A DNA stretch of 32,632 nt. Origin: a virus. Under the pieces are notes generated by a model that did no database searches, was not told where the DNA came from, and was given only the letters and a program-made list of their open reading frames with translations. A program made the translations under genes and the position numbers. Positions 873 through 28,135 of this stretch are shown piece after piece. The first letter of the stretch is position 1. Every line of letters starts with the position of its first letter. The DNA lies in the IMG/VR virus record IMGVR_UViG_3300023179_000322, positions 1 through 32,632 of that record, one strand, 5' to 3'.

Positions 873-922
873 TTCTGACCTCCTTTCTCGTTAGCGGTAA
901 GAATAATTATGCGGTATTTTAT

Positions 923-951
923 ATTTTAGCTGGAAATAGAGTAAAAATCAA
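923..951 (-). promoter_or_regulatory. Candidate sigma70-type promoter for the SleB hydrolase gene
   Basis: Read on the minus strand, TTGATT (946-951) and TAAAAT (923-928) are separated by exactly 17 bases, 50 bases upstream of the hydrolase ATG. This gives the hydrolase its own transcription start, separate from the methyltransferase operon upstream. The surrounding DNA is AT-rich, so a chance match is possible. Confidence 0.45.
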
Positions 952-962
952 TCTTTTTGGCT

Positions 963-1502
963 TTATTTTTTTCCTATAATCATAAATCTTGAAAATGACC
1001 AATCAGGATAGGTAAAATCTAGTTGTCCTATGTAATTTATTGATCTCAAAGGATATAAGGTTTGAAAGTGTTCTAATGATTCAGAATGAACAAAATGGTC
1101 ATCATGTTTCATGTTGTTACCTTGAATGATTACCCTTTTTCCTGTTTTGATTCTTTCAAACCATTCTAAATCTTTAAAATGTTCACTACTTGTATTAATT
1201 ATAAGATCAGCATCAGAGTCTAATGTGGAGCAATCTAAGGTATGAGCTTTAAACATCCAATTCTGGATAACCCAATTTTCATTTAACATGTCGGCTATAG
1301 GTTTACATAATGGATCAATATCATAACTAAAAATCTTTTTGACTTTAAATTTACCTCTAGACAATAATAGGAATGCTGTTAACCCATACCAACCTCCATA
1401 AATGGCTGTAAGGTCGCTTTTCCATTTTAAATTCTCTAATTCTTCACAAAGCCATAATTTACTAGATATTTGCCCGCTACTAAAGGCATCCTTATCAATC
1501 AT
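963..1502 (-). CDS. Putative class I SAM-dependent methyltransferase
   Basis: The 179-residue product has the order of a small Rossmann methyltransferase: an early glycine-rich turn YGGWYGL at 35-41, followed by a strand ending in YDIDP (60-64) where the acidic residue would bind the SAM ribose. A hydrophobic strand, DLIINTSSEHF, follows at the place of motif IV. It is short for the fold and has no recognisable substrate domain, so the substrate is unknown. Its ATG overlaps the stop of the upstream radical SAM gene in an ATGA, so the two are translationally coupled and form the tail of the three-gene operon 3764-963 (SGNH, radical SAM, methyltransferase). A role in tailoring the same product as the radical SAM enzyme is inference. 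Confidence 0.6.
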   Translation of the reverse strand: MIDKDAFSSGQISSKLWLCEELENLKWKSDLTAIYGGWYGLTAFLLLSRGKFKVKKIFSYDIDPLCKPIADMLNENWVIQNWMFKAHTLDCSTLDSDADLIINTSSEHFKDLEWFERIKTGKRVIIQGNNMKHDDHFVHSESLEHFQTLYPLRSINYIGQLDFTYPDWSFSRFMIIGKK

Positions 1503-3016
1503 TCTGCTAAACTTTTATAAAATTTTTTAAGTTCAGGAAAAACCTTAACAAACTTAAGATCACGTCTTTGATCATATTGGCTAAAAAAAGTATAAAAATT
1601 TCTTCTGGCCGTTTCTAACCTATGTAAATCTGAAGCGCCTTCTTTAAATATTTTGTAATTTCTTTCTAATTTGGCAATCTCAAAATCATAAAATCCTATA
1701 AAGTTTTCTATGTTAGCATTTGTTTTCATAAAATCTAACGCTTCAATAAAATATTTTTCAAAAGAAATTGGTAATACATGAATAGACTGCCACTCTGGGT
1801 TTCTTAACAATGGGATGTCAAACCAAACTCTTTGTTTAGGCTCAATAACATGATCAGGATGTGGATAATAAGGATCATTAATAGGAATAGTTTTTACACC
1901 CTGTATTAGCTTACTATTTTTCTTTCTTAGTTCTAGTATCCAAGCTAAAAAATCTTTAATTTTTGGCACACTTAACACATTGAATGTATTAATAAAAGTT
2001 ATTGTTGTATTAATGGTTTCACCTAAAAATCTATCTATATTATGATTTAATATCTTAAAGTCTAGGCCTGTTCTTATATATTCTGCTTGTGAACCCACAC
2101 TATCAATACTAATAAAAAGTGCAAAATTTTTAACAGGCATACTTACATACCAATTATTACCTGAATTAGGATTAAAACGTTCTTTATCCTCCCAAATTTT
2201 AATTTCTTCTAAGCGTTTAACCTTATGAATAAACTTATCTAAAAGTTCAGCTTTTGGAGGGCAAAAGTTACTTGTTATACTCAATTCTAACCAACTATTA
2301 GGATTAGCGTAGACATAATCTAAAACTCTGTAGAGATTATTGTCCATTAAAGGTTCCCCACCGGTAATCCGAAAAACTTCTAATTTTTTATAAAGCTGAG
2401 GCCACCATTGCCAAAATGCTGTCAAGTAAGGATTTTCCTTACCGCTTATTTTAATAGGCATCAACCCATCTTTGGCCAAATATTCTAAGTCATTGTGCCG
2501 AATCAGATCTCCATCATAATTATAAACATGAATAGGTCCTAAATTATTGATTTCTTCTTCCCAAGTGGTGCTTAGATGCGGACTACAATACATACATTTA
2601 AAATTACAGGCTTGATTAAAATTAACCTCTAAATATCTTGGATCGACTTCTAATGAATCTAGATTATTCAAAATGTCATCTTTGGCATTTTGAGCCCAAT
2701 ATTCACCAGACCTATATATTCTATCACTTCTGGCCCCTGAATCTTCTATTTTCCAACAGTAATGGCATCCTTGTGGTCTTTTACCCTGTAGCATCAATCT
2801 ACGTTCTTTCTTTTTCTGTTTGGTGTTATGTAGGGCACCAGGATTTCTTTTTATATCATCTATGCTAATTTTATGTAATGGTGGATGATAACAACTATGT
2901 GTCATTCCGTTGGTAAAATGCATACTAACTTGTGCCCATTTAGCAAAACACATTGATTTACTAATTTTATCTAATTGTTCTTGGGCGGTATCCGCAGTTT
3001 TATTATAATTACTCAT
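1499..3016 (-). CDS. Radical SAM protein with N-terminal twitch/SPASM-like cysteine domain (paralogue 1 of 3)
   Basis: The 505-residue product carries the radical SAM cluster motif CNFKCMYC (Cys137, 141, 144) and ITGGEPL (217-223), the SAM-binding GGEP element. A later segment, SIDSVGSQAEYIRTG (303-317), is typical of SPASM-group radical SAM barrels. Before the barrel lies a separate cysteine set (Cys23, Cys42, Cys84, Cys87) in the context THSCYHPPLH and CHYCWKIED. It looks like an auxiliary iron-sulfur (twitch-like) domain moved to the N-terminus. The proteins at 19853-21214 and 21223-22674 have the same architecture. The reaction is unknown; relatives modify peptides, proteins or sugars. 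Its ATG overlaps the stop of the SGNH gene by eight bases (ATGAGTAA), so the two are coupled. Compared with its paralogues it has an inserted stretch around residues 265-292. Confidence 0.85.
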   Translation of the reverse strand: MSNYNKTADTAQEQLDKISKSMCFAKWAQVSMHFTNGMTHSCYHPPLHKISIDDIKRNPGALHNTKQKKKERRLMLQGKRPQGCHYCWKIEDSGARSDRIYRSGEYWAQNAKDDILNNLDSLEVDPRYLEVNFNQACNFKCMYCSPHLSTTWEEEINNLGPIHVYNYDGDLIRHNDLEYLAKDGLMPIKISGKENPYLTAFWQWWPQLYKKLEVFRITGGEPLMDNNLYRVLDYVYANPNSWLELSITSNFCPPKAELLDKFIHKVKRLEEIKIWEDKERFNPNSGNNWYVSMPVKNFALFISIDSVGSQAEYIRTGLDFKILNHNIDRFLGETINTTITFINTFNVLSVPKIKDFLAWILELRKKNSKLIQGVKTIPINDPYYPHPDHVIEPKQRVWFDIPLLRNPEWQSIHVLPISFEKYFIEALDFMKTNANIENFIGFYDFEIAKLERNYKIFKEGASDLHRLETARRNFYTFFSQYDQRRDLKFVKVFPELKKFYKSLAE

Positions 3017-3764
3017 CGTTCCAATTTACGTTAGATAAAAGCCATTCAGCGATTTTTTGATGTCCTTTTATGGATGGGTGACCCCTATAGGTATATAGAT
3101 CTAAATAATTAGACAAGATATCGGATAAATCGGGCTTATGGATAATACCTTTACCCCAAGTGTCATTTAAAATGTCTATGCAGGTATTTCCTTTTACATC
3201 CTGTCCTATATATCCTGTAAAATTAAATTGTGATAAAAGCGTTCTTTTTAAATCTAATAAACTTAATGTATCAAATAAATGTAAGAAAAATATTTTAAAT
3301 CCGATGAGTTTAGATAGATTATCTATAATTAATAGAAACATTACTAAATCATTTTCCAAAATAGCGTGTTGATCATCAATTAAAAATTTGTCTATTAGAC
3401 AAGCACCATATGCTTTTGAAACTGTTTTTTCAAATTGTAATAGACTTAGTCTATCTCTTACCAAAGTTGTGAATCCAAAAAAAACTATATCACCTCGAGA
3501 TATTTTTCCATCTCTTATCGTTTGTAACAGAATATCAATTTGAGGAAAAGTCCCAGAACCCCTTTCACTTAAATTAACAAGACCTATTTCTAATCTGTTA
3601 GCAATTATAGAAATAAAACTCACATTGTATTTCAGAAATTGATCTCTGGTATGAAAGTCCATTCCATGAGTCGGATATCTAGCATCCGATTTATCATATT
3701 CATGTTCGAAGTCATCCTGATCTCCAGAAACAAAACTATCACCGAAAGCAAATATTTTCTTCAT
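3009..3764 (-). CDS. SGNH/GDSL-like hydrolase family protein (GDS type)
   Basis: The 251-residue product opens with FAFGDSFVSG, the block I nucleophile elbow of the SGNH/GDSL superfamily, with the serine at position 10. Near the C-terminus GHPSIKGHQKIAEWL supplies a histidine (about 229) at the usual block V place, although the aspartate that normally sits three residues before it is not obvious. Members are esterases, acyltransferases or deacetylases acting on lipids or glycans. Here the neighbours suggest acylation or deacylation of a glycan or of a radical SAM product. It has no signal peptide, so it should act in the cytoplasm. It is first in the operon with the radical SAM gene (8-base overlap). 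Its start lies 26 bases from the divergent epimerase start and has no clear Shine-Dalgarno. Confidence 0.75.
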   Translation of the reverse strand: MKKIFAFGDSFVSGDQDDFEHEYDKSDARYPTHGMDFHTRDQFLKYNVSFISIIANRLEIGLVNLSERGSGTFPQIDILLQTIRDGKISRGDIVFFGFTTLVRDRLSLLQFEKTVSKAYGACLIDKFLIDDQHAILENDLVMFLLIIDNLSKLIGFKIFFLHLFDTLSLLDLKRTLLSQFNFTGYIGQDVKGNTCIDILNDTWGKGIIHKPDLSDILSNYLDLYTYRGHPSIKGHQKIAEWLLSNVNWNDE

Positions 3765-3769
3765 AATTA

Positions 3770-3776
3770 TATTTAA
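3770..3776 (-). promoter_or_regulatory. T4-late-like promoter motif (TTAAATA) before the SGNH/radical SAM operon
   Basis: On the minus strand TTAAATA ends five bases before the SGNH ATG. It mirrors the ATAAATA that lies five bases before the divergent epimerase ATG. T4 late promoters use TATAAATA as the only core element. If it is used here, the transcript would start at or next to the start codon. The motif is short and the DNA AT-rich. Confidence 0.3.
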
Positions 3777-3778
3777 CT

Positions 3779-3785
3779 ATAAATA
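3779..3785 (+). promoter_or_regulatory. T4-late-like promoter motif (TATAAATA) before the epimerase operon
   Basis: TATAAATA at 3778-3785 is an exact match to the T4 late promoter core, placed five bases before the epimerase ATG at 3791. There is no Shine-Dalgarno in the gap, so the mRNA would be leaderless or nearly so. The match is exact but short. Confidence 0.4.
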
Positions 3786-3790
3786 AATCC

Positions 3791-4675
3791 ATGAAGAAAA
3801 TTTGTTTATTAGGTGGCAACGGTTATATAGGTTCTTCGCTTTATAAAAATTTAGACTACAATTTAACATCAATTGATTTATGTTGGTTTGGAAAAGATTT
3901 AGGTCATAGTAAAAAAATAGATGCTGGTTCTCTAACACCCAGTTTTCTTGGACAATTTGACACAATATTACTGTTTTCTGGTCACAGCTCTGTAAAAATG
4001 TGCGAAGGACCTTACGATTCTGTTTTTAAAAATAATGTAAAAGTTTTTGAAAACATTGCCAGCAATTTATTATCTTATCAAACCTTAATTTATGCCAGTA
4101 GTGGCAGTGTTTACGGAAACAAAAGTTTCGAAGCCATTGAGGAAGGGGAATTACAACTTCCGATAAATCATTATGATAAATCAAAACAAGAAATAGATAA
4201 ACTTTGTAGGATTTATCTATCTTCAGGAAAAAAAATTATAGGATTAAGATTGGGAACAGTAAATGGATGGTCACCTAACCTAAGAACTGACCTAATGATA
4301 AATGGTATGGTTATAAAGTCTTTAACTGATATAATGGTAGTCAGCAACTTAGGTATACAAAGGCCTATATTAGGTATAAAGGATTTAGTTAGGGCTATAG
4401 ATAATATAATACAAGATCCAAAACCTGGAGTTTATAACTTGGCTAGCTTTAATACCACAGTGGATGAAGTTTCAAATAATATCTGTAATTTACTCAAAGT
4501 TTCTAGGAATATAGACCAAACACCTGGTGTTATCTATGACTTTTCTATGAATACAAATAAATTTCAAAAGACCTATCAATTTACTTTTAAAGATAGTATT
4601 GATTCGATAGTCACATCACTATTAGATAAAACTTATCAAGTTTCTAATAGAAACCAGTATATAAATTATGTTTAA
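3791..4675 (+). CDS. NAD-dependent sugar epimerase/dehydratase (extended SDR)
   Basis: The 294-residue product begins with the Rossmann motif GGNGYIGSSL (8-17), the GxxGxxG pattern of extended short-chain dehydrogenases that act on nucleotide sugars. YASSGSVYG (101-109) holds the catalytic Ser region, and YDKSK (128-132) is the YxxxK pair, preceded by the typical INHYDKSKQEID context. These are the features of GalE/RmlB-like epimerases, dehydratases or reductases; the exact reaction cannot be told. It leads a three-gene plus-strand operon. The next gene, a sugar C-methyltransferase, starts inside its stop (ATGTTTAA, 8-base overlap). The pair resembles deoxysugar pathways in which a nucleotide sugar is dehydrated, C-methylated and reduced. 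The start lies directly behind a TATAAATA motif. Confidence 0.88.
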   Translation: MKKICLLGGNGYIGSSLYKNLDYNLTSIDLCWFGKDLGHSKKIDAGSLTPSFLGQFDTILLFSGHSSVKMCEGPYDSVFKNNVKVFENIASNLLSYQTLIYASSGSVYGNKSFEAIEEGELQLPINHYDKSKQEIDKLCRIYLSSGKKIIGLRLGTVNGWSPNLRTDLMINGMVIKSLTDIMVVSNLGIQRPILGIKDLVRAIDNIIQDPKPGVYNLASFNTTVDEVSNNICNLLKVSRNIDQTPGVIYDFSMNTNKFQKTYQFTFKDSIDSIVTSLLDKTYQVSNRNQYINYV

Positions 4676-5870
4676 TAATTACTGCCTAGCATGTGGGAGC
4701 ACAAAATTAATATTACAATTAGATTTTGGATCTCAACCGTTAGCGAACAGTTATTTGTCAGATAAAGATCATGATGAGAAAACATATCCACTTGCTGTTA
4801 AATTATGTAAAAAATGTTATCATTTACAATTAAACTTTTCAGTTCCTCAAGAAGAAATTTATAAAAATTATCTTTATCTTAGTGGAACGTCTAACACTTT
4901 AAGCCAATATTGTGATTGGTTTGCCTCTCATGTAACCAAAGAGGTAGGATCGGTAGGATCAGTCATTGATATAGGCTGCAATGATGGCACCCAATTAGAC
5001 TATTTTAAAAACTTAGGATGGGATACATACGGCATAGATCCAGCAGAAAATATCTACAACTTAAGTTCTGTAAAACATACTATTTGGAATAATTTTTTTA
5101 CACGCGATGCTGTTTCATTAATCAATAAAACCTTTGATGTAATAATAGCACAAAATGTAATGGCACATAATCCAAGTCCTCTTGAATTCCTTTTCAATTG
5201 TAAGGCTTTAATGAACGATGATTCTACAATTTATGTTCAGACAAGTCAATGTAACATGATTTTAAATAATGAATTTGATACCATTTACCATGAGCACATA
5301 AATTTTTTTAATTTACAGAGTATGATGAAACTGTGTGAGAGAGCAGGGCTTCATTTAGTTGATATGAAAAAAACTCCTATACATGGAACTAGCTACGTCT
5401 TCGTAATTAAAAAATCTCCTTTGGATGTATATAATTTAGCAAAACTAATGTCTATAGAATATGCAGCAGGATTGTATCAAAAAAATACTTACGATTTGTG
5501 GGCTCAAAAAGTAAACAATATAAGGTTGAACCTTATTGATATTATTGAAATCTATAGAAATGATGGCTTTAGATTAATAGGATACGGTGCTGCTGCTAAA
5601 GGTAACACTTTACTTAATTTTACAAAAATTAAATTAGATTTTATAATTGATGACAATCCTTTAAAACAAAATCTTTATACTCCTGGTATGAAAATTAATA
5701 TAAAATCAATCAATAGTTTAGATACTCTTGATATAAATGAAAAAGTTTTGTTTATTCCATTGGCATGGAATTTTTTTAACGAGATAAAATCAAAAATTTT
5801 ATCAAAACGCTCTAATCCTAACGATAAATTTTTAATCTATTTTCCAGAGGTAAAAATCGATGACATTTAA
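4668..5870 (+). CDS. Sugar C-methyltransferase of the TylC3/NovU type (zinc-binding)
   Basis: The 400-residue product shows all three parts of the deoxysugar C-3' methyltransferase family. First is an N-terminal zinc site CLAC...CKKC (Cys6, 9, 47, 50). Next is a SAM-binding Rossmann core with DIGCNDGT (101-108). Last is a C-terminal domain containing GYGAAAKGNT (305-314). The family's active-site motif YHEH is present at 207-210, followed by INFFN. Enzymes of this group methylate a ketosugar nucleotide (usually TDP-linked) in the cytoplasm to give branched-chain sugars. Its length is normal and no key residue is missing. It overlaps the epimerase upstream by eight bases and the DUF6165-like gene downstream by eleven. 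This is among the most confident functional calls in the window, although the actual sugar is unknown. Confidence 0.9.
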   Translation: MFNNYCLACGSTKLILQLDFGSQPLANSYLSDKDHDEKTYPLAVKLCKKCYHLQLNFSVPQEEIYKNYLYLSGTSNTLSQYCDWFASHVTKEVGSVGSVIDIGCNDGTQLDYFKNLGWDTYGIDPAENIYNLSSVKHTIWNNFFTRDAVSLINKTFDVIIAQNVMAHNPSPLEFLFNCKALMNDDSTIYVQTSQCNMILNNEFDTIYHEHINFFNLQSMMKLCERAGLHLVDMKKTPIHGTSYVFVIKKSPLDVYNLAKLMSIEYAAGLYQKNTYDLWAQKVNNIRLNLIDIIEIYRNDGFRLIGYGAAAKGNTLLNFTKIKLDFIIDDNPLKQNLYTPGMKINIKSINSLDTLDINEKVLFIPLAWNFFNEIKSKILSKRSNPNDKFLIYFPEVKIDDI

Positions 5871-6216
5871 ATTTCCTTTAATAGAACTTGTAGATAGATA
5901 CTGCATTGCCAAATTGAAAATGAATAAATTGCAAGGTGCAAATAAAGAAGAATTTGAATTTTATTCGTCTCAACTTCAAACTATTGACCTTAACATCATA
6001 AAAGAAGAATTAGATCTTTTATATAATGTTCATGAAAGAGTATGGGACCTGGAAGATGACTTCAAAAAATACAGGGTTGAAAATTTGTATAACTTAGAAG
6101 AAATCGGAAGAAGGGCTCTACACGTAAGAGATATTCTACAAGAAAGGTATGATTTAAAAAATAAAATGGCAGAAAAATTAGGAGACCCAGTGAAAGAAAT
6201 TAAGAAATATGGTTAA
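5860..6216 (+). CDS. DUF6165-like small helical protein
   Basis: The 118-residue product is almost entirely charged helix. The N-terminal PLIELVDRYCIAKLKMNKL and the later VWDLEDDFKKY, followed by ALHVRDILQERYDLKNKMAEKLG and ending in EIKKYG, follow the pattern I associate with DUF6165. Members of that family sit beside glycosyltransferases and have the form ELxDKxxILxIK...LWxxEDxIR...NDxRAxLKxxIN. Its function is not known. It is third in the epimerase/methyltransferase operon (11-base overlap with the gene before it), and its last 17 bases overlap the convergent glycosyltransferase gene. A role as a helper or subunit for the sugar enzymes is inference from position. The family assignment is from memory of the sequence pattern and is moderate. 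Confidence 0.6.
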   Translation: MTFKFPLIELVDRYCIAKLKMNKLQGANKEEFEFYSSQLQTIDLNIIKEELDLLYNVHERVWDLEDDFKKYRVENLYNLEEIGRRALHVRDILQERYDLKNKMAEKLGDPVKEIKKYG

Positions 6217-7270
6217 AGATTTCTAATTGATTAAATTCTGGAGTAAGTGACTGATATTTCATATCCATTATAACGTTATAATTATGTTCTAATATTGGTC
6301 TACACTGTGCAATAAAATCTTCTTTTTCTATATTTGTCATACTGCACAATCTTTCAATTTCAACTAAAATAGCTTCTTTTCTCTTTTGATCATCGTTAAT
6401 AAAATTATAGTCTTCATTAATAATAGGATGAAATGTTTTAAATCCTCGTGTGTGTAGATATCCTAAAGCCTCATAGGCTCCATAGACTATAAATGGTCTT
6501 TTACACCAAATTGGTCTATAGGTTTTTTCTGTGCAGTCTGCAAAATGGCCTAGACTTGTTTCTAATACAACATGAAAAAAACTCTCTTGAATGGCTATAT
6601 TTAGGTCGTGATCATTAAAAGTTAGAGATCTACCTATTTGATAGGGAATATTTCTAATCCAACTTTCAATAAGAATTGACTTAGAATTTAAAATGCTTAG
6701 ATAGTTTATTACTTCTTCATTTGAAATTTTTAATAATTTACTAGGATAAGGATATGACCCATTACAGAAAGAATAAACAGCGTCGTCTAATAAACCTCTT
6801 TCTACAAGATCAACAAAAAACCTAAGTCTCCAAGGTTTAAAAGTTCTTGAAAAAATTGATAAAGATTTAGTTGGTTTTTTATCTAATATTAATTTTTCAT
6901 CCAGCAAAACATTAAACATATTAAATCCGTCAACATGAATATCTGGAAAACCTTTCAACCTAAATTGTTCTTTGCACATTTTGGCAGATACCTTATCCTC
7001 ACATACATAGAAAATTTGGTTTTGTGGTAAGTTATATTTTTCTATAATATCTAGAGTGTATTGTGCCATTCCCGGGACATGAGGAACATCGCTGTTTAAA
7101 ATTACAAACTTTAGCGTATTATTTTGTTTAATATTTTTTACAAGGTCGTCATTAATTGCAATTAAATTTCTTGAAAAAACATAGATATTATGAGACTCAA
7201 ATGTTAAATGATCAAAATTTTTTACCTCTAAATGTTTATTTAGAATTGAACTACCTTCGGTATAAATCAT
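6200..7270 (-). CDS. Putative glycosyltransferase (single-domain relative of the 7267-9540 product)
   Basis: The 356-residue product has two Rossmann-like halves. Its C-terminal half carries TEKTYRPI (247-254) and GFKTFHPIINEDY (276-288). The same two motifs recur, in the same order and spacing, at the C-terminus of the gene immediately upstream (SEKTYKAI and GYKTFHPFIDENYD). In GT-B enzymes an E-x-KxxRP block like this contacts the nucleotide of the donor sugar. The segment SRTFKPWRLRF (141-151) corresponds to a MRPHRSF segment in the neighbour. Donor and acceptor are unknown. The ATG overlaps the stop of the upstream gene (ATGA). It is the last gene of the nine-gene minus-strand run 17564-6200, and its 3' end overlaps the convergent DUF6165-like gene by 17 bases. 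Confidence 0.65.
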   Translation of the reverse strand: MIYTEGSSILNKHLEVKNFDHLTFESHNIYVFSRNLIAINDDLVKNIKQNNTLKFVILNSDVPHVPGMAQYTLDIIEKYNLPQNQIFYVCEDKVSAKMCKEQFRLKGFPDIHVDGFNMFNVLLDEKLILDKKPTKSLSIFSRTFKPWRLRFFVDLVERGLLDDAVYSFCNGSYPYPSKLLKISNEEVINYLSILNSKSILIESWIRNIPYQIGRSLTFNDHDLNIAIQESFFHVVLETSLGHFADCTEKTYRPIWCKRPFIVYGAYEALGYLHTRGFKTFHPIINEDYNFINDDQKRKEAILVEIERLCSMTNIEKEDFIAQCRPILEHNYNVIMDMKYQSLTPEFNQLEIFNHIS

Positions 7271-17564: not shown

Positions 17565-17572
17565 AATTTCTA

Positions 17573-17579
17573 ATAAATA
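17573..17579 (+). promoter_or_regulatory. T4-late-like promoter motif (ATAAATA) before the 17600 operon
   Basis: ATAAATA lies 20 bases before the plus-strand ATG at 17600. It is interleaved with the minus-strand motif for the divergent operon, so the two would share a 36-base intergenic region. A weak AGGA lies just before the ATG. Confidence 0.35.
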
Positions 17580-17585
17580 TAGCTT

Positions 17586-17592
17586 TATTTAA
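17586..17592 (-). promoter_or_regulatory. T4-late-like promoter motif (TTAAATA) before the nine-gene operon
   Basis: On the minus strand TTAAATA lies 21 bases before the SGNH ATG at 17564, almost the same distance as the plus-strand motif has to its own gene. This symmetry supports a pair of divergent promoters of the same class, but the motif is only seven bases long. Confidence 0.35.
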
Positions 17593-17599
17593 TAGGAAT

Positions 17600-18379
17600 A
17601 TGAATAGTTTCAATAAAATTGCAGTGGTTTACAGGGGACATAAAAGAACCTGGGATGTTACCAAAAATAACAATTTTGGTTTTTTCGCAAAACTTGCTAA
17701 CAATGTAGATTACTATGTATCGCTTTGGAACGAAGATGATGTAGTAGAAGACGATATAAGAAGAGATTTTAAAGAACATAATTTAGTAGCTATACAAATC
17801 ATCGATCCTGAAAGTAAGTTCTATAACTACTATGCCGGACCAGCATTTTTGGCCAGTCTAATGATACCGAAAATGATAGAAAATACTGCACATCACCAGG
17901 ACAAATATGATATAGTTATAGATACTAGAATGGATGCATATTTTTTTACACAAACCTATCTTTATCATCAAATGTTTGTGGACAGAAATATGTTGTGGTC
18001 CAACAACGTAGGTTTAATAAATGGGAACATGGGACTAGGAGACCTTGTTTTTATGTCAAATTTACCAACCTTTTGCACTTGGGCCAATAGATTTCATCTT
18101 GTGGAACTGGTAAAAAATCTTGGTGAAGACGTCCATGCATTTAATTACAAGCTAACAAAAAAGTTAGACCTCAATCCTGTTGAGATTCCCTGGTTTAATT
18201 TAAATCTTGTCAGGCCTAATATTTTCCTCGAAAAAGACATTTTTGAGATCCTTACCAATCAGCAATTTTTTCTACCTGTTTTTGGTAAATCTACAAGCTT
18301 CTGGAACACTGAACTGACTATTCACGAAAAAATAATGATAGCCAATAGATTTAAAATGACAAGTTTCGGTGTTATGTAA
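17600..18379 (+). CDS. Putative glycosyltransferase-like protein
   Basis: The 259-residue product starts IAVVYRGHKRTWDVT, then has a strand DIVIDTRMDAYFF (104-116). Its DxxxD resembles the metal-binding DxD of GT-A enzymes. YRGHxRTW at the N-terminus recurs, as far as I recall, in uncharacterised phage and bacterial proteins annotated as glycosyltransferase-like. VFMSNLPTFCTWANRF and a late AxRFxM are consistent with that group. There is no transmembrane helix. It is the first of two plus-strand genes and is followed after one base by the phosphomannomutase gene, which would make mannose-1-phosphate for GDP-sugar donors; the pairing supports a sugar-transfer role. The weak AGGA before the ATG is the only Shine-Dalgarno-like element. 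The activity call is moderate. Confidence 0.55.
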   Translation: MNSFNKIAVVYRGHKRTWDVTKNNNFGFFAKLANNVDYYVSLWNEDDVVEDDIRRDFKEHNLVAIQIIDPESKFYNYYAGPAFLASLMIPKMIENTAHHQDKYDIVIDTRMDAYFFTQTYLYHQMFVDRNMLWSNNVGLINGNMGLGDLVFMSNLPTFCTWANRFHLVELVKNLGEDVHAFNYKLTKKLDLNPVEIPWFNLNLVRPNIFLEKDIFEILTNQQFFLPVFGKSTSFWNTELTIHEKIMIANRFKMTSFGVM

Positions 18380-18380
18380 A

Positions 18381-19076
18381 ATGATTTTAGTCTTCGACAT
18401 TGATGGTGTTCTTACCAATATAGGAGAATGTATTAATAAAGAATTTAGCCTATTCCTACTGAAATTTTTAAACGCACGCACATACTATCTCATAACTGGT
18501 AGCGATATAACTAAGAGTATAAACCAAATTGGCAACGAACTCATAAACAATGCAAAAATCTCCTATCACTGTCTAGGAAATCAATATAAAAAAAATGAAA
18601 CTATTAATCAACGTAACCAATTTACCTTGGTTGAGGAAGAATTAGATTTCATAACACACCTATATAAAACTAGCTTTTGGACAAAAAAATCTGAAACATT
18701 TTTACAGTTAAGACAAGGAAGTATAAATTTTAGTTTAGTAGGTCAATCTGCATCGGATTTAGATAAAATAATCTATGCTGAACAAGATATGATATTACAT
18801 GAACGTTTGAAATTTGTTAACCTTATAAATCAAAATCTCTCTAGATTATCTGCATTCGTAGGTGGTAGAGCCAGTATAGACCTATGTTTAAAAGGGTGCG
18901 ATAAATCTCAAATCTTTAGAGAAATTGGCCACTCTCCCATAACGTTCTTTGGTGATAGATGCAGTCCTGGTGGAGTAGATTATCCTTTAGCAAAACTCTG
19001 TATTGGTGAACATAAAGTCTACGAGATTAAAAATGGATATCTAGAGACATGGGATCTACTTAAAAAAATACTCTAG
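18381..19076 (+). CDS. Phosphomannomutase, HAD-superfamily eukaryotic-type (PMM)
   Basis: The 231-residue product (ATG at 18381, one base after the upstream stop) matches the HAD-type phosphomannomutase family. It has DIDGVLT (6-12) with the nucleophile Asp6 and the acid/base Asp8, and RQGSINFSLVGQ (111-122), the cap-domain sugar-phosphate site. GGRASIDLCLKGCDKSQ (161-177) carries the core lysine, and FFGDRCSPGGVDYPL (189-203) carries the metal-binding aspartates. PMM interconverts mannose-6-phosphate and mannose-1-phosphate in the cytoplasm, feeding GDP-mannose and GDP-fucose. This is the PMM1/PMM2-like fold, unlike the larger bacterial ManB enzymes, and unusual in a phage. A GTG twelve bases upstream is in frame but would overlap the previous gene. 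The last 21 bases overlap the convergent SGNH gene. Confidence 0.88.
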   Translation: MILVFDIDGVLTNIGECINKEFSLFLLKFLNARTYYLITGSDITKSINQIGNELINNAKISYHCLGNQYKKNETINQRNQFTLVEEELDFITHLYKTSFWTKKSETFLQLRQGSINFSLVGQSASDLDKIIYAEQDMILHERLKFVNLINQNLSRLSAFVGGRASIDLCLKGCDKSQIFREIGHSPITFFGDRCSPGGVDYPLAKLCIGEHKVYEIKNGYLETWDLLKKIL

Positions 19077-19856
19077 CTGTGGGGCTAATCTTTCAGCATA
19101 TTTTAGATGTGAATAATCATTTGTGTGTAACCAATAAGATAAAAAATCGTCAGGTCTTTCTATTTTAAGGTAATCACTAGGATCTGTAAATTTGTTTCCT
19201 GCAAATCTCAACACATTATCTATGAAAGTTCTAGTTTGCTGACATAAGTTATAATTAAATTCGGGTTGACTAGGATGTATCCATGCTACCATTGGGATTA
19301 ATGCCAAATTTATAGGCAACAGGCTAATAGATAGAATAGCTTTATAGTAATGATAGATAATATAATCATCATTAAACAAATCAATTTCGGTGTTAGGATT
19401 TACCTTAACCTGAAAAGGCTCATTAATTACATATACATCGAACGGATTAGGTATTTTTTTCCTATTGAATGCCAACATACGGATTGTAGGTTGTAGTCCA
19501 ACTAGGATTAAATCTGTTTCTAGGATGTCTCCATTGACGTAATCTGTAAAAATATCATAGTAAGTTAAATCAATTGGAGCTCCTGGATATGCTTTATAAA
19601 CATTTTCAACATTAAATTTTTTGGCAAGTTGATAATGCCATGTTTTTTTACTCTGGATTATTTCTCTACCATAAGAATCAATTCGATTAGAATTTGGGGG
19701 CAGTTCGTGAAAACGCATGAGAAATTCCCCGTAGCTACATTTTAAACTTTTTTTATAATTATCACAATCACGTTCAGTCATTCCAAGGAGTTCATAATCG
19801 GCAAGTTCTTCCCCTGTAGTAAAACTATCACCATAAGCACGAATCCTTGTAATCAT
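19056..19856 (-). CDS. SGNH/GDSL-like protein (GDS type)
   Basis: The 266-residue product opens with IRAYGDSFTTGEELADYELL, a full block I with the nucleophile serine at 11. Near the end HTNDYSHLKYAERLAPQLEYF supplies an Asp247/His250 pair spaced DxxH as expected for block V. The middle includes YPGAPIDLTYYD, a possible block II/III region. The protein is cytoplasmic by sequence and of typical length. Here the SGNH gene follows its radical SAM partner (ATGA overlap with 19853-21214), the reverse of the order at 3764-1499 and 11490-9537. This swap argues that the two proteins work together rather than merely sharing an ancestral arrangement. Its 3' end overlaps the convergent PMM gene by 21 bases. 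Confidence 0.75.
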   Translation of the reverse strand: MITRIRAYGDSFTTGEELADYELLGMTERDCDNYKKSLKCSYGEFLMRFHELPPNSNRIDSYGREIIQSKKTWHYQLAKKFNVENVYKAYPGAPIDLTYYDIFTDYVNGDILETDLILVGLQPTIRMLAFNRKKIPNPFDVYVINEPFQVKVNPNTEIDLFNDDYIIYHYYKAILSISLLPINLALIPMVAWIHPSQPEFNYNLCQQTRTFIDNVLRFAGNKFTDPSDYLKIERPDDFLSYWLHTNDYSHLKYAERLAPQLEYFFK

Positions 19857-21214
19857 GTTTGACTTCCATATGTTGTATAAACTTCTTTACAGAGATTATA
19901 AAAATTTTCATACTCAGGAAAAGTCTTGAGTAGACTTGTCCCTAATCTCCTATCATTTTCGGTGAAAAAACTATAAAAATCTCTTCGACCATTTTTTATA
20001 GTGGTAGCGTTAACCGGATTTTCCATCATATAATCAGTAACCCTTTTCATTTTTTCAAATTCAACATTACTAAAAATATCTTGTCTATCTTCAATAAATT
20101 TTAAGGTAGATAACTGATGCTCTTTAAAATCATCAGTCAAAATATTAATCATCCAATGTGGTGGTTCTTTAAGATAAGGGGTATCGAAGAGAACACTACG
20201 CGGACCAAGTTCTTTCCTCCAATCTATAATTTTTTCTAAAAGTAATTGAAAGTTTGTCACACATAAAACATTGTAAGTACACATTAGGTTAAGACTATAT
20301 CCTTCATTTATGATGGCCCTCACATTTCGTTCCCAATGTTTACATTTTAGACCAGTTCTCATATATTCAGCTCTAAGTCCCCAACTTTCAATACTGGTAA
20401 AAAACGTTACCCTTCCTATTTTCTTTTGTTCCAATAAACTTCTCAACCTATCTAACAACCTATCAACTCTAGCAAAAGTTACTCCCAAGTTACTATTCAC
20501 AGTGATAGTTAAATTAGGCGCAGGTTCTTTCTCTAATAAGTCAAAAAATTCTAATGCCGCAGGGTTCATTAATGGTTCACCACCAGTGATTCTAAGTGTA
20601 TGTAAATCTTTTCTTAGATCAGGCCACCATTTCCAAAAAGCTTCTATATAAGGGTTTTTATCCTTGGGTCCATAATGTGTTCCATCTTTTAAAAATTCTA
20701 TACCATATTGATTATAGGTTAAATCATGATTACCATGTTTTTTAATTTCTTCCACCCACATGGTGCTTGCTTGAGGGCAGCAATATCCGCACCTAAAATT
20801 ACAGGCATTACCAAAACTTACTTCGAGATACCTTGGATTTACATCAACATCCCAAGGAAGTTTCCCTATTTTTTCAATTAGAGGATGGCTATAGTCACTA
20901 GAACTATGAATCATTCTGTCACTGATATGATCGCCAGATAAATCTTCTATATTCCAACAATAATAACATTCAGGAGGTCTTACACCTTCCAACATCATTT
21001 TCCTTTGCTCTTTTTTCCACTCTGTGTTATGTAAGGCACTGGGATTTTTTTCTATTTCGTGTAATCCGATCCTATGAGGTCTAGGATGATAACAACTATG
21101 ATTGTCTCCTGTATGTAGATAAAGCGTTTGATGTAGCCATTTTTGAGTGCAAAAACTAGGACTTACATTGTTCAGCCTATTTCTGGTTAGTTTAATGTGT
21201 TGTAGATGATCCAT
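19853..21214 (-). CDS. Radical SAM protein with N-terminal twitch/SPASM-like cysteine domain (paralogue 2 of 3)
   Basis: The 453-residue product has CNFRCGYC (Cys138, 142, 145), RITGGEPL and a barrel segment SIESWGLRAEYMRTG. Its forward cysteines, Cys22, Cys41, Cys83 and Cys86, stand in FCTQKW, HSCYHPRPHRIG and CYYCWNIED. ALHNTEWKKEQRKMMLEG in between is nearly shared with the other two members. A final FYSFFTENDRR is also common to the trio. The family function is unknown. It is coupled to the SGNH gene downstream (ATGA) and separated by eight bases from the paralogue upstream. Two adjacent paralogues point to a tandem duplication, which must be old because the sequences differ at many positions. 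Confidence 0.85.
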   Translation of the reverse strand: MDHLQHIKLTRNRLNNVSPSFCTQKWLHQTLYLHTGDNHSCYHPRPHRIGLHEIEKNPSALHNTEWKKEQRKMMLEGVRPPECYYCWNIEDLSGDHISDRMIHSSSDYSHPLIEKIGKLPWDVDVNPRYLEVSFGNACNFRCGYCCPQASTMWVEEIKKHGNHDLTYNQYGIEFLKDGTHYGPKDKNPYIEAFWKWWPDLRKDLHTLRITGGEPLMNPAALEFFDLLEKEPAPNLTITVNSNLGVTFARVDRLLDRLRSLLEQKKIGRVTFFTSIESWGLRAEYMRTGLKCKHWERNVRAIINEGYSLNLMCTYNVLCVTNFQLLLEKIIDWRKELGPRSVLFDTPYLKEPPHWMINILTDDFKEHQLSTLKFIEDRQDIFSNVEFEKMKRVTDYMMENPVNATTIKNGRRDFYSFFTENDRRLGTSLLKTFPEYENFYNLCKEVYTTYGSQT

Positions 21215-21222
21215 AATACCTC

Positions 21223-22674
21223 TTAATTTTTATTATAGGGCTTGGCCTGAAGCAGTTGACAATCTATTACGAAGTCCTGTAATTCAGGAAAATAATCAAG
21301 TAGCCTTCTATTGTTTCGTTTATCATATTCAGTAAAGAAAAGATGAAAATTTTTCATCGCTAATTCTTTATCGAATTTGGTGTCGCTTTTTATCCAATCA
21401 ATTAGACGTTGAACTTTACTTATTTCAAAATCTTTGAAACCTTTAAAAAAGTTTTTCTCTGTTTCTATGTTGTCTTCCATAAATTGTTTGGCTTCCTCTA
21501 AATAATAAACATTTTCTGGATTTATTTTAGGATTCAACCATTCTGGAAATTCTAACTGTGGAATATCAAACCAAATCAACTGCCTATCTTTGTTATAGGT
21601 TCTTCTAAGCTCTAAAATATTTTTTATATAAGTTAAAAAATTAAAATAACTTAGAGATGTAAAAGTAATAATAAAACTAAGACTATGCTTATTACCTTGA
21701 GCAAGGTATTGAGTTATATTTTGATATAAAACTCCAAAGTCCATGCCTTGTCTTATATACTCTGCTTGGGGACCCCAACTGTCTAGGCTGCAAAAAAGTA
21801 AAAAATGGTCTATACAATCATTAGATGTTATCTCATTCAAAGATGTCATAAATTTAGACCACTGTTTACCCGGAGGACAACAATTACTAGTGATACTTAA
21901 TTTAAGATTAGCATTTGGATTTTTTTTGACAAACTCAAACACCTTAAAAGTGCTTTTATCCATCAATGGTTCTCCCCCAGTCATTCTGAATGTATTCAGA
22001 GTTTTATAAATTTCAGGGAACCATTGCCAAAAGGCTTTTAAATATGGATTTGATGGGCTATTATCTGGCCATGTATTATTGTCTTTCATCCAACCTAACT
22101 CATGGTGAGGCCTATCACTGAGGACATAGGATCCATGCTTTTCTATATCGTGCATCCAAGCAGAACTAATATGTGGACTACAATAACTACACTTAAAATT
22201 ACAGCCTTGATTAAAATTAACTTCTAAGTATCTAGGATTAGCATTACCTGTTGATCCTATTTCTAATGCTTCTTCAATGATGCCTTCTTCATAGACATCA
22301 TTACTTCTGTAGGCTCTATCACTTAGTTGACTACCGCTATCCTCTATCTGCCAACAAAAACTACATTCACTAGGCCTTGTGCCCTCAAGCATGAGCTTTC
22401 TTTGTTGTTTTTTATGTTTAGTATTATGTAGAGCACTTACATCAATTTTGATTTCTTCCAAAGGAATATGATGATGTCTAGGATGATAACAACTATGAGT
22501 TTGACCTGTAGGTATATGAATACTAACATTGAACCATTTGGCCAAACAAAAACTAGGGCTAATGGAATTTATTTTTTCATATACAGTATTAGAGTCATAG
22601 AAATAGACTGATTCCAGTTTTCCTCTTTTTTTGATAACCTTATTTCCGCTAACCCCGATAGGCTTTTCTGTCAT
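21223..22674 (-). CDS. Radical SAM protein with N-terminal twitch/SPASM-like cysteine domain (paralogue 3 of 3)
   Basis: The 483-residue product has CNFKCSYC (Cys158, 162, 165), FRMTGGEPL and SLDSWGPQAEYIRQG. The forward cysteines Cys43, Cys62, Cys104 and Cys107 lie in FCLAKW, THSCYHPRHHHIP and CSFCWQIEDSG, followed by LSDRAYRS. It is closer to the 1499-3016 product (FNQxCNFKCxYCSPH in both) than to its immediate neighbour at 19853. About 35 extra N-terminal residues precede the conserved region; an internal start is possible but the ATG used here sits in an ATGA overlap with the upstream repeat-containing glycosyltransferase. Substrate unknown. Confidence 0.85.
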   Translation of the reverse strand: MTEKPIGVSGNKVIKKRGKLESVYFYDSNTVYEKINSISPSFCLAKWFNVSIHIPTGQTHSCYHPRHHHIPLEEIKIDVSALHNTKHKKQQRKLMLEGTRPSECSFCWQIEDSGSQLSDRAYRSNDVYEEGIIEEALEIGSTGNANPRYLEVNFNQGCNFKCSYCSPHISSAWMHDIEKHGSYVLSDRPHHELGWMKDNNTWPDNSPSNPYLKAFWQWFPEIYKTLNTFRMTGGEPLMDKSTFKVFEFVKKNPNANLKLSITSNCCPPGKQWSKFMTSLNEITSNDCIDHFLLFCSLDSWGPQAEYIRQGMDFGVLYQNITQYLAQGNKHSLSFIITFTSLSYFNFLTYIKNILELRRTYNKDRQLIWFDIPQLEFPEWLNPKINPENVYYLEEAKQFMEDNIETEKNFFKGFKDFEISKVQRLIDWIKSDTKFDKELAMKNFHLFFTEYDKRNNRRLLDYFPELQDFVIDCQLLQAKPYNKN

Positions 22675-24647
22675 AGATTTTCCTTGTTTAGATTATATAA
22701 TGATTTAAATTTTTCTGCAAGCCAAATCCTATCATTGATTAATTTATGATCAGTCTCTTCTTTGATAAAATCCAAAGCATGTTGGGCCGCTTGGTTGGCG
22801 AAATTTCCAAATTGGTTTTGAGCACCTTGAGTCCTCCAGACTTCCAGTTCTGAAAACTGTTCATTTGTAGCCAGCTTCACACATTCTCTAAACACGCTTC
22901 TCCAGGTGCTAAATTCATCTGTATTAAATCTTGTGATATTACTAACTGACTCCATGACCTTGACTCCTGGGACGACCGATGTGCTCAAATCTAGAGACTG
23001 CCACTTCCGCATCTTCAGTAGGGCCTGCCGTGGAAACAGCTTGACACCTCCATATCCATAGACAAGATCATTAATAGGATTTCTACTTAACCATATATAA
23101 ACAAATTGTCTATCAAAAAGATCAGGAGAGAAATCGAATGTCCAATCTTCCACCAACCATGCATCCCCGTCTACTACATAAAACATATCAGTTTCTGCGA
23201 TTTCTGCTGCTCGCTTATGTGCTTGAAAAATACCCGTGACGCCATCTACTCTCTTTGCCCACGGAGCTTTAGCCTTTACTCTATTCCAATTTAATTCTGC
23301 GTCTTGTTCGTGATAACTGATAAAAATAATATCTAATTTAGTGGCCATGGTAAGATCTATCATTCCCATATCCTTGACTTTTTTAGATTTTTTAGATAAC
23401 TTGGCTCTTACTACCCAAATTTTTTCTCCGTGATAATCTACATACCATTCGTGAAGATAATCTTTATCATGATAGGGTATTTGATAATCCCATTCTATAC
23501 ATAAATTTTTAATTGCCTTGTTAGTATTAATAATAGTATCTGGACATATATATCCTAAACTTTTATAACCTGAAGGGTTAAGTGCATATTCTATACGTAG
23601 AGCTTCTACATCCTTCATACCTGTAAGTTTAGGATCTAATAAATAGCTATTTGTGTAGGCGAAATCATAATATGGTATTTCTGTTGTAACATTCCGAAAA
23701 CTAAAATCTTCCACAGCGTCATTATAGATTATTCTATAATTAGGGCTCACATACCCTACTACTTTAGACCCTTTAGTTTTGGTAAAAGACATTTTAAAGG
23801 CCCATATTTCATAATCTAGGTCAGGTGTATATTTTGGATCAAGTAGATACACATGTTCATATTCAAAATCATAGTGTGGTATGGCTAGATCGATTTCATA
23901 CTCAAGCCTAGGTAACTTGGAATTATAGGTAATTTTAGGTTGAGGTGATATATAACCTTTGACTACCCAATCTTTACTTTTCCTATACTTAGGCCTGATC
24001 CTGACTACCCATTTTTCTTCATGAGGGGTATGAATTGGATCTAATAGATAAACATTTTCATTTTCACATTCCCAAAATGGAGGCAAAAGTTTATCTAACT
24101 TCAAAGAAAAATCGGGTAGATCGTCATTGAAAATGATTTCAATATCAGGACAGATATCTCCCATATCTCTACTTTCAAGAACTTGTCCTTTTAAAGGTCG
24201 ACACTTATAGGCCCAAACTCTATCTTTAATAGGTGCAAATCTCTTATCGATATACCACACTAATTCACACTTACTTTGATATGGATCTGGCTCAAAATTA
24301 TTGATAGGATCATTGTCAAATGTCATTGATCTATCAAGATCAGGATTTTTCCTCCATACCATCTTAGGTATTTCAATTTCTAATGTCAGATAACCTTTGT
24401 TGAAATCCCAATCTACGGGAAAGAATTTGACTACCCATTCACCTTCATAGGTATAGACTACACATTGATCAACTTCAGGTAAATCTTCTATAAAATAAAA
24501 TGGCCGACTGTCAGATAACCAAGGGTTTACAACCGCAAAGATTTCATTATAGGGACCTAGATTATAAATTTCAGTATCATAGAGCTCTACGCTACCTTCC
24601 CAGGGTATCTGCTTTACTAACTCAGGATCAACTTGATAAATTTCCAT
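22671..24647 (-). CDS. Repeat-containing protein with C-terminal glycosyltransferase-like domain
   Basis: The 658-residue product has two parts. Residues about 129-433 hold four full and one partial repeat of roughly 67 residues. Each runs YLLDPxxTP, then a WAxK/WVVR strand, then GYISPxxxIxYN, an acidic DFSxxL strand and IPYYDFxYxx. Residues about 437-600 form a GT-A-like domain: LDIIFISYHEQDAELNWNRV, then AKRVDGVTGIFQAHKRAAE, then VVDGDAW with a DxD at 493-495, and NPINDLVYGYGGVKLFPR. I know the C-terminal pattern from T4-like marine phage proteins of unproven function. The repeats may bind a glycan or assemble the protein. A TTAAATA motif lies 19 bases before its start, making it the lead gene of a four-gene operon with the two radical SAM paralogues and the SGNH gene. 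Confidence 0.7.
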   Translation of the reverse strand: MEIYQVDPELVKQIPWEGSVELYDTEIYNLGPYNEIFAVVNPWLSDSRPFYFIEDLPEVDQCVVYTYEGEWVVKFFPVDWDFNKGYLTLEIEIPKMVWRKNPDLDRSMTFDNDPINNFEPDPYQSKCELVWYIDKRFAPIKDRVWAYKCRPLKGQVLESRDMGDICPDIEIIFNDDLPDFSLKLDKLLPPFWECENENVYLLDPIHTPHEEKWVVRIRPKYRKSKDWVVKGYISPQPKITYNSKLPRLEYEIDLAIPHYDFEYEHVYLLDPKYTPDLDYEIWAFKMSFTKTKGSKVVGYVSPNYRIIYNDAVEDFSFRNVTTEIPYYDFAYTNSYLLDPKLTGMKDVEALRIEYALNPSGYKSLGYICPDTIINTNKAIKNLCIEWDYQIPYHDKDYLHEWYVDYHGEKIWVVRAKLSKKSKKVKDMGMIDLTMATKLDIIFISYHEQDAELNWNRVKAKAPWAKRVDGVTGIFQAHKRAAEIAETDMFYVVDGDAWLVEDWTFDFSPDLFDRQFVYIWLSRNPINDLVYGYGGVKLFPRQALLKMRKWQSLDLSTSVVPGVKVMESVSNITRFNTDEFSTWRSVFRECVKLATNEQFSELEVWRTQGAQNQFGNFANQAAQHALDFIKEETDHKLINDRIWLAEKFKSLYNLNKENL

Positions 24648-25511: not shown

Positions 25512-25542
25512 ATAACTACACTGACACAACTAGGAGATTTCT

Positions 25543-28081: not shown

Positions 28082-28088
28082 ATCTGTA

Positions 28089-28095: not shown

Positions 28096-28100
28096 TGAGG

Positions 28101-28129: not shown

Positions 28130-28135
28130 GTATAT

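Follow-up and report, generated by a model that had tools for sequence, protein, structure and literature searches.

A conserved radical SAM and glycosyltransferase gene island of a T4-like phage that probably builds an unusual decorated sugar

Introduction

Clusters of radical SAM (rSAM) genes have been on record in T4-like phages since 2010, and no explanation for them is established. The T4-like Campylobacter phages CP220 and CPt10 carry five clustered rSAM genes together with nucleotide-diphospho-sugar transferases, in a block-wise interchangeable module downstream of baseplate lysozyme/PAAR genes for which a role in host metabolism at low oxygen was proposed (Timms et al. 2010, PMC2853527). 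T4-like marine viral genomes hold up to 12 rSAM genes and an Fe-S carrier (Nishimura et al. 2017, PMC5332604); the accessible part of that report counts the rSAM genes only, and gives no gene order, pathway or association with glycosyltransferase (GT) or SGNH genes. The tail-fibre-linked, host-recognition hypervariable region of pelagimyophages contains GTs and rSAM cassettes, and is read as modifying the SAR11 O-chain, with no core described in the accessible text (2020, PMC7029224). A Baltic Sea study counted 261 'ahbD/heme' auxiliary metabolic genes and called functional inferences speculative (PMC9301287); such virome genes could be tailoring rSAM genes like those considered here.

We analysed a viral stretch of 32,632 nucleotides (the window; IMG/VR record IMGVR_UViG_3300023179_000322), derived from an environmental sample, in which a T4-like phage island at 963-24647 encodes what is probably a pathway to an unusual decorated sugar. 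The window is a fragment without structural markers of its own, and its T4-like, baseplate and fibre context is read from relatives. With that context it resembles CP220 in combining clustered rSAM and GT genes near baseplate/fibre genes, but CP220 rSAM proteins matched the N-terminal-twitch (N_Twi) profile weakly, showing general rSAM similarity only; the CP220 proteins tested include no B12-rSAM, no F1-type GT and no convincing SGNH counterpart, and CP220 has an amidinotransferase. The marine multi-rSAM phages are likewise T4-like, and IscA/IscU-like genes adjoin the locus in sister records of the window. In the cultured Vibrio phage K566 (OZ196521), four clustered N_Twi-type rSAM genes are accompanied by genes of GT-A/GT-B-like type and by one for a Gly/Ser/Tyr-rich protein, whereas no B12-rSAM, SGNH or F1-type GT was found in that cluster and the enzymes are about 20-25% identical to those of the window. 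An initial annotation was aware of no published phage pathway combining these genes; as worded this is not supported, since multi-rSAM and GT modules have been published for T4-like phages (PMC2853527, PMC5332604, PMC7029224), although B12-rSAM, SGNH and 2OG genes together are not described in the accessible text of these papers. The precedents are thus similar but less complete, and in that text none of them defines the present core.

Results

Gene content of the island

ORF calling on the window filled 963-24647 with 21 ORFs in five co-directional blocks, neighbours overlapping at start and stop by 1-38 nt or lying less than 60 nt apart; when ORFs of 130 aa or more are counted, the sole gap above 90 nt is the site of a 118-aa gene. 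The features, with flanks, are:

2-316, minus: small membrane protein, lysis side
291-872, minus: cell wall hydrolase, lysis side (PF07486, 87.8 bits)
963-1502, minus: 179-aa protein, methyltransferase-like by a glycine-rich motif only, at the island edge beside the lysis genes
1499-3016, minus: N_Twi rSAM 'A' (NF033640, 298.5 bits)
3009-3764, minus: SGNH-like protein 1 (motif alignment; weak Lipase_GDSL match, E 0.0025, the one SGNH Pfam match)
3791-4675, plus: SDR sugar epimerase/dehydratase (PF01370, 62.9 bits)
4668-5870, plus: sugar C-methyltransferase of TylC3/NovU domain layout (PF08421, PF13489, PF08484)
5860-6216, plus: 118-aa conserved partner of the C-methyltransferase
6200-7270, minus: putative glycosyltransferase, sharing a domain with the C-terminus of the next protein
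7267-9540, minus: 757-aa two-part putative glycosyltransferase (HMM relatives in 56 annotated loci)
9537-10688, minus: N_Twi rSAM 'B' (NF033640, 210.4 bits)
10681-11490, minus: SGNH-like protein 2 (AF2 model, pLDDT 61; PDB matches)
11484-13568, minus: B12-binding rSAM, anchor gene (PF02310 and PF04055, both above Pfam cut-offs)
13531-14793, minus: SPASM-like rSAM (partial NF033640; Cys-rich C-terminus)
14790-16010, minus: N_Twi rSAM 'C' (NF033640, 303.2 bits)
16010-16846, minus: 2OG-Fe(II) oxygenase (TIGR04324, E 1.7e-6, below cut-off; HxD...H motif)
16827-17564, minus: SGNH-like protein 3 (GCSFT motif, block-V HP)
17600-18379, plus: 259-aa protein, possible GT (phrog_13607, a PHROG of unknown function, E 7.9e-8)
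18369-19076, plus: PMM-family HAD-IIB enzyme, phosphomannomutase or sugar phosphatase (PF03332, 61.3 bits)
19056-19856, minus: SGNH-like protein 4 (GDSFT motif; 30% aligned identity to SGNH-like protein 2)
19853-21214, minus: N_Twi rSAM 'D' (NF033640, 299.8 bits)
21223-22674, minus: N_Twi rSAM 'E' (NF033640, 302.3 bits)
22671-24647, minus: GT-A glycosyltransferase of family F1, with repeats at the N-terminus (structure match of C-terminal domain 435-653)
24701-25486 and 25685-26446, plus: conserved flank gene pair (GT-B-like by eye only)
26443-28081, minus: adhesin-like genes (Gly_rich_2, PF21722, 41.9 bits at 27104-28081)

Most of the initial gene-by-gene reading is borne out: about twenty overlapping genes, among them seven rSAM proteins of three architectures (five of the NF033640 family, a SPASM-like and a B12-binding one), an SDR epimerase, a TylC3-type C-methyltransferase, a PMM-family enzyme, four SGNH-like proteins and a 2OG oxygenase, with at least one GT-A. 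Seven independent profile or motif assignments within one contiguous block lie far beyond chance. The DUF6165-like label of 5860-6216 was not confirmed, with no Pfam match even at E<=5, and of the several proteins called glycosyltransferase-like, 22671-24647 retains the name by its fold, whereas 6200-7270, 7267-9540 and 17600-18379 gave no informative family match.

Radical SAM enzymes

Five window proteins pass the curated NCBIfam cut-off of the full NF033640 N_Twi_rSAM model (170 bits) with 210-303 bits, and CxxxCxxC is intact in all seven rSAM proteins. Across 14 aligned N_Twi proteins, C125/C129/C132 and four N-terminal auxiliary cysteines are invariant. In the tree every rSAM position forms its own ortholog clade (100/100 for B, C, D and E), and A is an extra copy whose own branch lies at the base of the D/E group. 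D is the best-conserved member (67-75% identity in seven other phages), E is 58-66% identical to its counterparts, and the divergent SPASM-like protein, with Cys pairs at its C-terminus, keeps its place in relatives at 56-71%. In its N-terminal region, the N_Twi profile matches BtrN, a twitch-domain rSAM aminocyclitol dehydrogenase, at the auxiliary-cluster domain, although the domain order is permuted, the twitch preceding the rSAM core in N_Twi.

In 11484-13568 the B12-binding domain precedes the rSAM domain, and the protein is probably a B12-dependent rSAM C-methyltransferase. It is similar to ApyD, PhpK and TIGR03975, all below cut-offs, and membership in a characterised subfamily was rejected (ApyD, 114.8 bits where the cut-off is 750; TIGR03975, 109.1 where it is 281.85). 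Since ApyD and TIGR03975, its closest relatives, are RiPP C-methyltransferase families, since N_Twi proteins are weakly similar to many peptide maturases, and since structural proteins could serve as acceptor, one could also speculate that the array modifies a ribosomally synthesised, RiPP-like peptide or a side chain of a conserved structural protein, with glycosylation secondary. We consider this quite improbable: the island gaps hold no conserved short precursor ORF besides the 118-aa gene, no RiPP recognition partner was found, and the surrounding enzymes are of carbohydrate type.

Sugar-modifying, SGNH and glycosyltransferase genes

The SDR epimerase is weakly similar to heptose 6-epimerase, and the C-methyltransferase has counterparts of 56-57% identity in relatives L062/L065, where the 118-aa partner (60-61%) again lies beside it. 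The PMM-family enzyme also matches HAD-SF-IIB, below cut-off. The family nearest to the oxygenase, TIGR04324, is the 'sporadic carbohydrate cluster 2OG-Fe(II) oxygenase'. The 179-aa edge protein, with no Pfam match, keeps its place in G016/G005 and L062/L065 at 60-64% identity. A nucleotide-sugar synthase set is absent from the island, so that the island does not show the complete pathway suggested by the initial annotation, and flux may depend on host precursors.

The SGNH-like proteins show the marks of the SGNH/GDSL superfamily, namely the fold and the block I Ser, block II Gly and block V His; G14, S16, G91, R125 and H247 do not vary among 11 proteins, and at block III no invariant oxyanion Asn aligned, the invariant residue being Arg (R125). 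The top PDB matches of the SGNH-like protein 2 model, whose confidence is moderate, are nearly all SGNH/GDSL esterases. Protein 1 has a counterpart of 45% identity in L062/L065, adjoining the B12-rSAM gene, and protein 3 has HMM relatives in 40 loci.

Within the island, fold-level GT-A support is confined to 22671-24647, whose domain 435-653 is confidently modelled and matches mostly GT-A or nucleotidyltransferase enzymes. These include SunS and ppGalNAcT2, which glycosylate peptides or proteins, as well as GtrB and HddC. The acidic DxD-type motif of the GT-A family reads DGD in five of seven aligned rows, the exceptions being L010:1989 and L018. The GT-A gene is fused to an rSAM gene in L011/L022 and overlaps one in L010, L013, L073, L074 and L085. 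As for the other candidates, 6200-7270 is 35% identical over 113 aa to the C-terminus of 7267-9540 and has 33% identity in L062/L065, and 7267-9540 has no PDB match.

Conservation across uncultured phages

A recurrent order is found in IMG/VR: GT-A, NTwi_E, NTwi_D, [SGNH], NTwi_C, SPASM-rSAM, NTwi_B, B12-rSAM, SGNH. From GT-A to B12-rSAM it is kept in L062, L065, L007 and others, and core genes are 42-75% identical across eight phages. Among relatives of at least 12 kb (n=83), 59 have three or more extra rSAM genes beside the B12 enzyme, and the window shares its lysis-side flank and almost the entire island with two sister records. Carbamoyl-, sulfo- and methyl-transferases occur in relatives' loci. 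In some records the B12 enzyme lacks a nearby array: G018 has none above cut-off, and that of G015 is about 67 kb away. The only match in the cellular collection, L139, has by sequence inspection a CMP-sugar synthase resembling KdsB, plus a HAD protein, amid rSAM, SGNH-like and 2OG genes.

The genes are not scattered, unlinked morons in relatives, the outcome by which the initial annotation would have been refuted, since order is kept in many viral contigs with position-specific orthologs. That auxiliary metabolic genes accumulated loosely in a hypervariable hot spot, with no joint function, would fit the different contents of this site in the window and in G016, the lower identity inside than in the flanks, and the module swap of CP220/CPt10; the order of the core, in which each position has its own ortholog clade, and the GT-rSAM fusion make this very unlikely.

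Flanks, membrane components and promoters

The locus is linked to tail-fibre and lysis genes and is T4-like. The lysis-flank genes (61-63% and 66-79% identity) occur in the same flank in G016/L062/L065, and the pair at 24701-26446, with no family match, in that of G016 (52% and 54%). Of the adhesin-like genes, 26443-27141 matches phrog_4474. In about a dozen relative loci the GT-A end carries a fibre-like gene; beside the window's own GT-A gene an F8-type fibre gene is absent.

No recognisable membrane flippase, polymerase or initiating transferase occurs in the island, and a hydropathy scan of 15 relative loci found TM-like segments in 0 of 161 island ORFs, so that an O-antigen/capsule assembly cluster was rejected. 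One window SGNH protein has a single hydrophobic stretch in the hydropathy scan. All four perfect consensus sigma-70 promoters sit in the flank and none in the island; the window shows no enrichment of the T4-type late promoter motif.

These data bear on the main rival to fibre glycosylation, that a host surface glycan (LPS/O-antigen or capsule) is remodelled during infection, leading to superinfection exclusion or receptor change. The GT and tailoring enzymes would act on cytosolic lipid-linked or nucleotide-sugar intermediates, which a host flippase would export. The same interpretation was given, in the accessible text, for the pelagimyophage regions (PMC7029224), the K566 cluster includes an LPS galactosyltransferase-like gene and has a lipid A acylation gene, PagP, directly after the cluster, and GtrB and HddC are among the fold matches. 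Against it stand the missing membrane components, the linkage to fibre and lysis genes, and the promoter distribution, as remodelling is expected early. We regard it as possible but on balance doubtful.

T4-like phages glucosylate their DNA, and by sequence inspection relative G017 has a QueE-like gene. That the island makes a hypermodified base or nucleotide protecting the genome is nevertheless the least likely reading, and a highly improbable one: the QueE-like gene is not part of the island, where neither a DNA base hydroxylase nor a hydroxymethylase was recognised, and the island sits at fibre/lysis modules rather than replication genes.

Discussion

The conserved order, the GT-A/rSAM fusion, the fibre-lysis site and the lack of membrane components reduce the problem to a specific question: on which molecule the product sits. 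Our preferred reading, at a probability of roughly 45%, is that a cytosolic pathway, encoded between the modules for tail fibres and for lysis, makes a radically tailored glycan and attaches it, most likely to tail fibres. We infer the sugar substrate, order of reactions, acceptor and benefit as follows. The SDR epimerase, together with the C-methyltransferase, would remodel host-derived nucleotide sugars; the N-twitch/SPASM array may then oxidise, epimerise or cross-link unactivated sugar carbons, and the B12 enzyme may C-methylate one; the GT-A enzyme, physically coupled to rSAM in some relatives, would transfer the product; and SGNH and 2OG enzymes would decorate it, with carbamoyl-, sulfo- or methyl-transferases in relatives. 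The likeliest acceptor would be the phage's own tail-fibre/adhesin proteins, where the glycan could alter receptor binding or shield the virion.

We favour glycosylated fibres because the family matches are of carbohydrate type and stand in conserved order with one clade per position; because the GT-A fold matches include SunS and ppGalNAcT2 and this gene is fused to or overlaps rSAM; because the 2OG enzyme is nearest a carbohydrate-cluster family, the N_Twi profile matches BtrN and L139 has, by sequence inspection, a KdsB-like gene; because some loci carry a fibre-like gene at their GT-A end, with neither TM-like segments nor a conserved short precursor ORF; and, as negative evidence, because perfect sigma-70 promoters are flank-only. 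Counting against it, no acceptor or nucleotide-sugar synthase set was found, several GT assignments lack family support, N_Twi resembles peptide maturases, the B12 enzyme occurs without an array in some records, late promoters are not enriched, and the window has no F8-type fibre gene beside GT-A. Of the initial interpretation, a linked, conserved phage pathway of carbohydrate-type tailoring enzymes near fibre/adhesin genes stands, whereas its completeness and lack of precedent are not supported.

More tentatively, it is possible that a virus-restricted six-step rSAM core (four N-twitch, one SPASM-like and one B12 C-methyltransferase) performs glycan chemistry unknown in cells on the tail fibres of a large T4-like group, with a variable SGNH/2OG/carbamoyl/sulfo/methyl outer layer diversifying under receptor or defence pressure. 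Scans of the same kind found 301 relatives of the B12-rSAM enzyme in IMG/VR against one in 84,980 GTDB species genomes; the family thus seems nearly confined to viruses, and its chemistry may lack a cellular counterpart.

Conserved order of the island across related phages

The 21 genes of the tailoring island at 963-24647 lie close together in five blocks, each read in one direction. Five of the genes encode radical SAM (rSAM) proteins with an N-terminal twitch domain (N_Twi A to E). The genes referred to below are as follows.

963-1502, g963
1499-3016, N_Twi A
9537-10688, N_Twi B
11484-13568, B12-rSAM, a protein combining B12-binding and radical SAM domains
13531-14793, SPASM-rSAM
14790-16010, N_Twi C
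19853-21214, N_Twi D
21223-22674, N_Twi E
22671-24647, GT-A glycosyltransferase (GT) gene

The B12-rSAM, used as a single-sequence query, returned 18 viral loci, and as a profile 301 viral matches, of which 80 were kept; run against 84,980 species genomes of Bacteria and Archaea, the same two scans gave none and one, respectively. A single N_Twi query found no relatives among viral contigs, its peptide patterns probably being too specific. At least three further rSAM genes were present in 59 of the 83 relatives that reach 12 kb, and among those 59 a GT gene was also present in 52, an SGNH gene in 46 and all three kinds in 40. These counts are descriptive, without a null model, as the HMMs used for counting derive from relatives within the same dataset. 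The 14 loci in which the B12-rSAM appeared solitary are an overestimate, because in four of them (G020, G022, G026 and G028) an N_Twi array is present at a distance of about 10-13 kb, beyond the flank covered, which rules out the solitary reading for these four. Portal_T4, the T4-type portal gene, was found in five related records, and none of the relatives scored above the cut-off of the gp23 capsid model. One 76,827-bp viral contig (L126) has 21 N_Twi model matches, ten of them above the curated cut-off. The only B12-rSAM relative outside the viral collection lies on a Gammaproteobacteria MAG contig, which could be viral or cellular in source, in a run of KdsB-like CMP-sugar synthase, sulfotransferase-like, SGNH-like, 2OG and rSAM genes.

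Two related records, L062 and L065, have kept almost all of the island, with gene-by-gene identities of 27-71%, and their right-hand border is that of the window (g963, cell wall hydrolase, protein X). The core order recurs with small changes as GT-A, N_Twi E, N_Twi D, (SGNH), N_Twi C, SPASM-rSAM, N_Twi B, B12-rSAM, compared with which the window has N_Twi B and B12-rSAM swapped. When 54 N_Twi proteins were placed in a maximum-likelihood tree, positions B, C, D and E formed separate clades over eight phages with 100/100 support, so the four are enzymes that diverged long ago and not recent duplicates. The initial annotation had taken the genes for a single phage-borne island; the opposite case, scattered and unlinked morons in the relatives, is ruled out by the conserved order and the position-specific orthology.

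Family assignments

The proposed family calls were borne out for six of the seven rSAM proteins and for the SDR, C-methyltransferase and PMM-family proteins by profile cut-offs, and for 22671-24647 by a GT-A fold; 'DUF6165' and most other GT calls are unproven. Five island proteins score above the curated cut-off of NF033640 (twitch domain-containing radical SAM), Pfam cut-offs are exceeded by the SDR, C-methyltransferase and PMM-family proteins, and one further rSAM protein is divergent, with a Cys-rich C-terminus. In 14 aligned N_Twi proteins the cysteines of CxxxCxxC never vary, nor do four cysteines in the N-terminal part, and the N-terminal segment of the N_Twi profile matches the C-terminal auxiliary-cluster domain of BtrN, in line with a permuted twitch domain. 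The 2OG protein has a carbohydrate-cluster oxygenase model as its top match, below cut-off. Ser, Gly and His landmarks recur in the four SGNH-like proteins and their relatives, and the predicted model of one of the four matches SGNH/GDSL esterases; the block III Asn is not conserved in the aligned proteins, which have a conserved Arg instead. A confident model was obtained for the C-terminal domain of 22671-24647, which matches GT-A enzymes, SunS and ppGalNAcT2 among them, and whose DGD motif is retained in five of seven aligned rows; the N-terminal repeats of the protein gave AF2 models with pLDDT mostly below 40 and no interpretable structure. GT-A family proteins in two related loci (L010:1989-5891 and L013:1-3174) carry many repeats of roughly 65-75 aa, which resemble degenerate copies of the GT core and differ in number among phages. 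PDB sequence searches with the two-part putative GT (7267-9540), a flank gene and the SGNH alignment gave no useful match, and a RiPP precursor was rejected after a search of the island gaps found no conserved short ORF of that kind.

Flanks and promoters

The IMG/VR record is a linear 32.6-kb fragment with a GC content of about 0.31 as far as 24.7 kb and about 0.48 from there on. An assembly chimera at this step is ruled out, because a related locus, G016, has the same flank genes beside a low-GC island of its own: the window's flanking genes stand at both of its ends (52-79% identity), and the rSAM island between them is a different, diverged one, as it also is in G005, another relative, which has the flank genes of the lysis side. 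The GC-rich half contains two adhesin-like genes (PF21722), a series of small ORFs and a tRNA pair:

28719-28886, tRNA-Met(CAT) and tRNA-Leu(TAA), side by side

This half has four perfect TTGACA-N17-TATAAT promoters, together with several 11/12 sites. At 25483-32292 small ORFs follow a series of sigma-70 promoters that are close to perfect and mostly carry an extended TG ahead of the -10 box; read from these promoters, the stretch would be an early-gene region. In 900-20800, the 19.9 kb of the island covered by one scan, there was no 12/12 site and a total of 116 promoter-like sites against a shuffled expectation of 112.3, and a second promoter scan found no perfect site in the rest of the island. 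The T4 late promoter TATAAATA was dropped as a sign of late expression, its three matches against 6.9 expected being uninformative. At the other end, 2-872 encodes a cell wall hydrolase whose N-terminus has a hydrophobic segment and then a small protein with a TM-like segment, and resembles a lysis cassette that is conserved next to the island.

A candidate pathway and its acceptor

The initial annotation had proposed a complete glycan or glycopeptide pathway directed at virion fibres or the host surface. Judged from their families, the island's parts would fit a soluble pathway in which a sugar is reshaped and transferred. In two related loci (L011/L022) a radical SAM protein and the GT-A domain form one fusion, and in five others the GT-A gene overlaps a radical SAM gene; fibre-like genes adjoin the GT-A end in about a dozen, with lysis genes at the opposite end, and none of the ORFs across 15 related islands has a TM-like segment. 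We tentatively place the acceptor on the virion (probability roughly 0.45), on the basis of the fibre linkage, the lack of membrane components and of early-type promoters, and the protein-glycosyltransferase-like fold matches. The main rival, somewhat less likely, is the host surface, for which the pelagimyophage literature and a PagP gene near the cluster of Vibrio phage K566 speak. By sequence inspection, relatives add carbamoyltransferase-like, sulfotransferase-like and another 2OG-like gene, and five sister records (L079, L011, L022, L065 and L100) carry IscU/IscA-type Fe-S carrier genes near the lysis genes, at a place the window stops short of; cofactor supply for the rSAM array is a plausible role.

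Comparable modules are known: an interchangeable one of five rSAM and GT genes downstream of the baseplate genes in CP220/CPt10 (PMC2853527), 12 rSAM genes in a marine T4-like genome (PMC5332604) and rSAM cassettes within the fibre region of pelagimyophages (PMC7029224). The cultured Vibrio phage K566 likewise has, at 161.5-170.3 kb, a cluster of four N_Twi genes with GT genes. The present locus is therefore a larger, better-defined version of these and not the first of its sort; it is new in literature searches that covered open-licence PMC papers, and a description elsewhere may exist. At the end of the K566 cluster lies a gene for a 225-aa Gly/Ser/Tyr-rich protein (L140:18333-19010), a candidate acceptor or adhesin.
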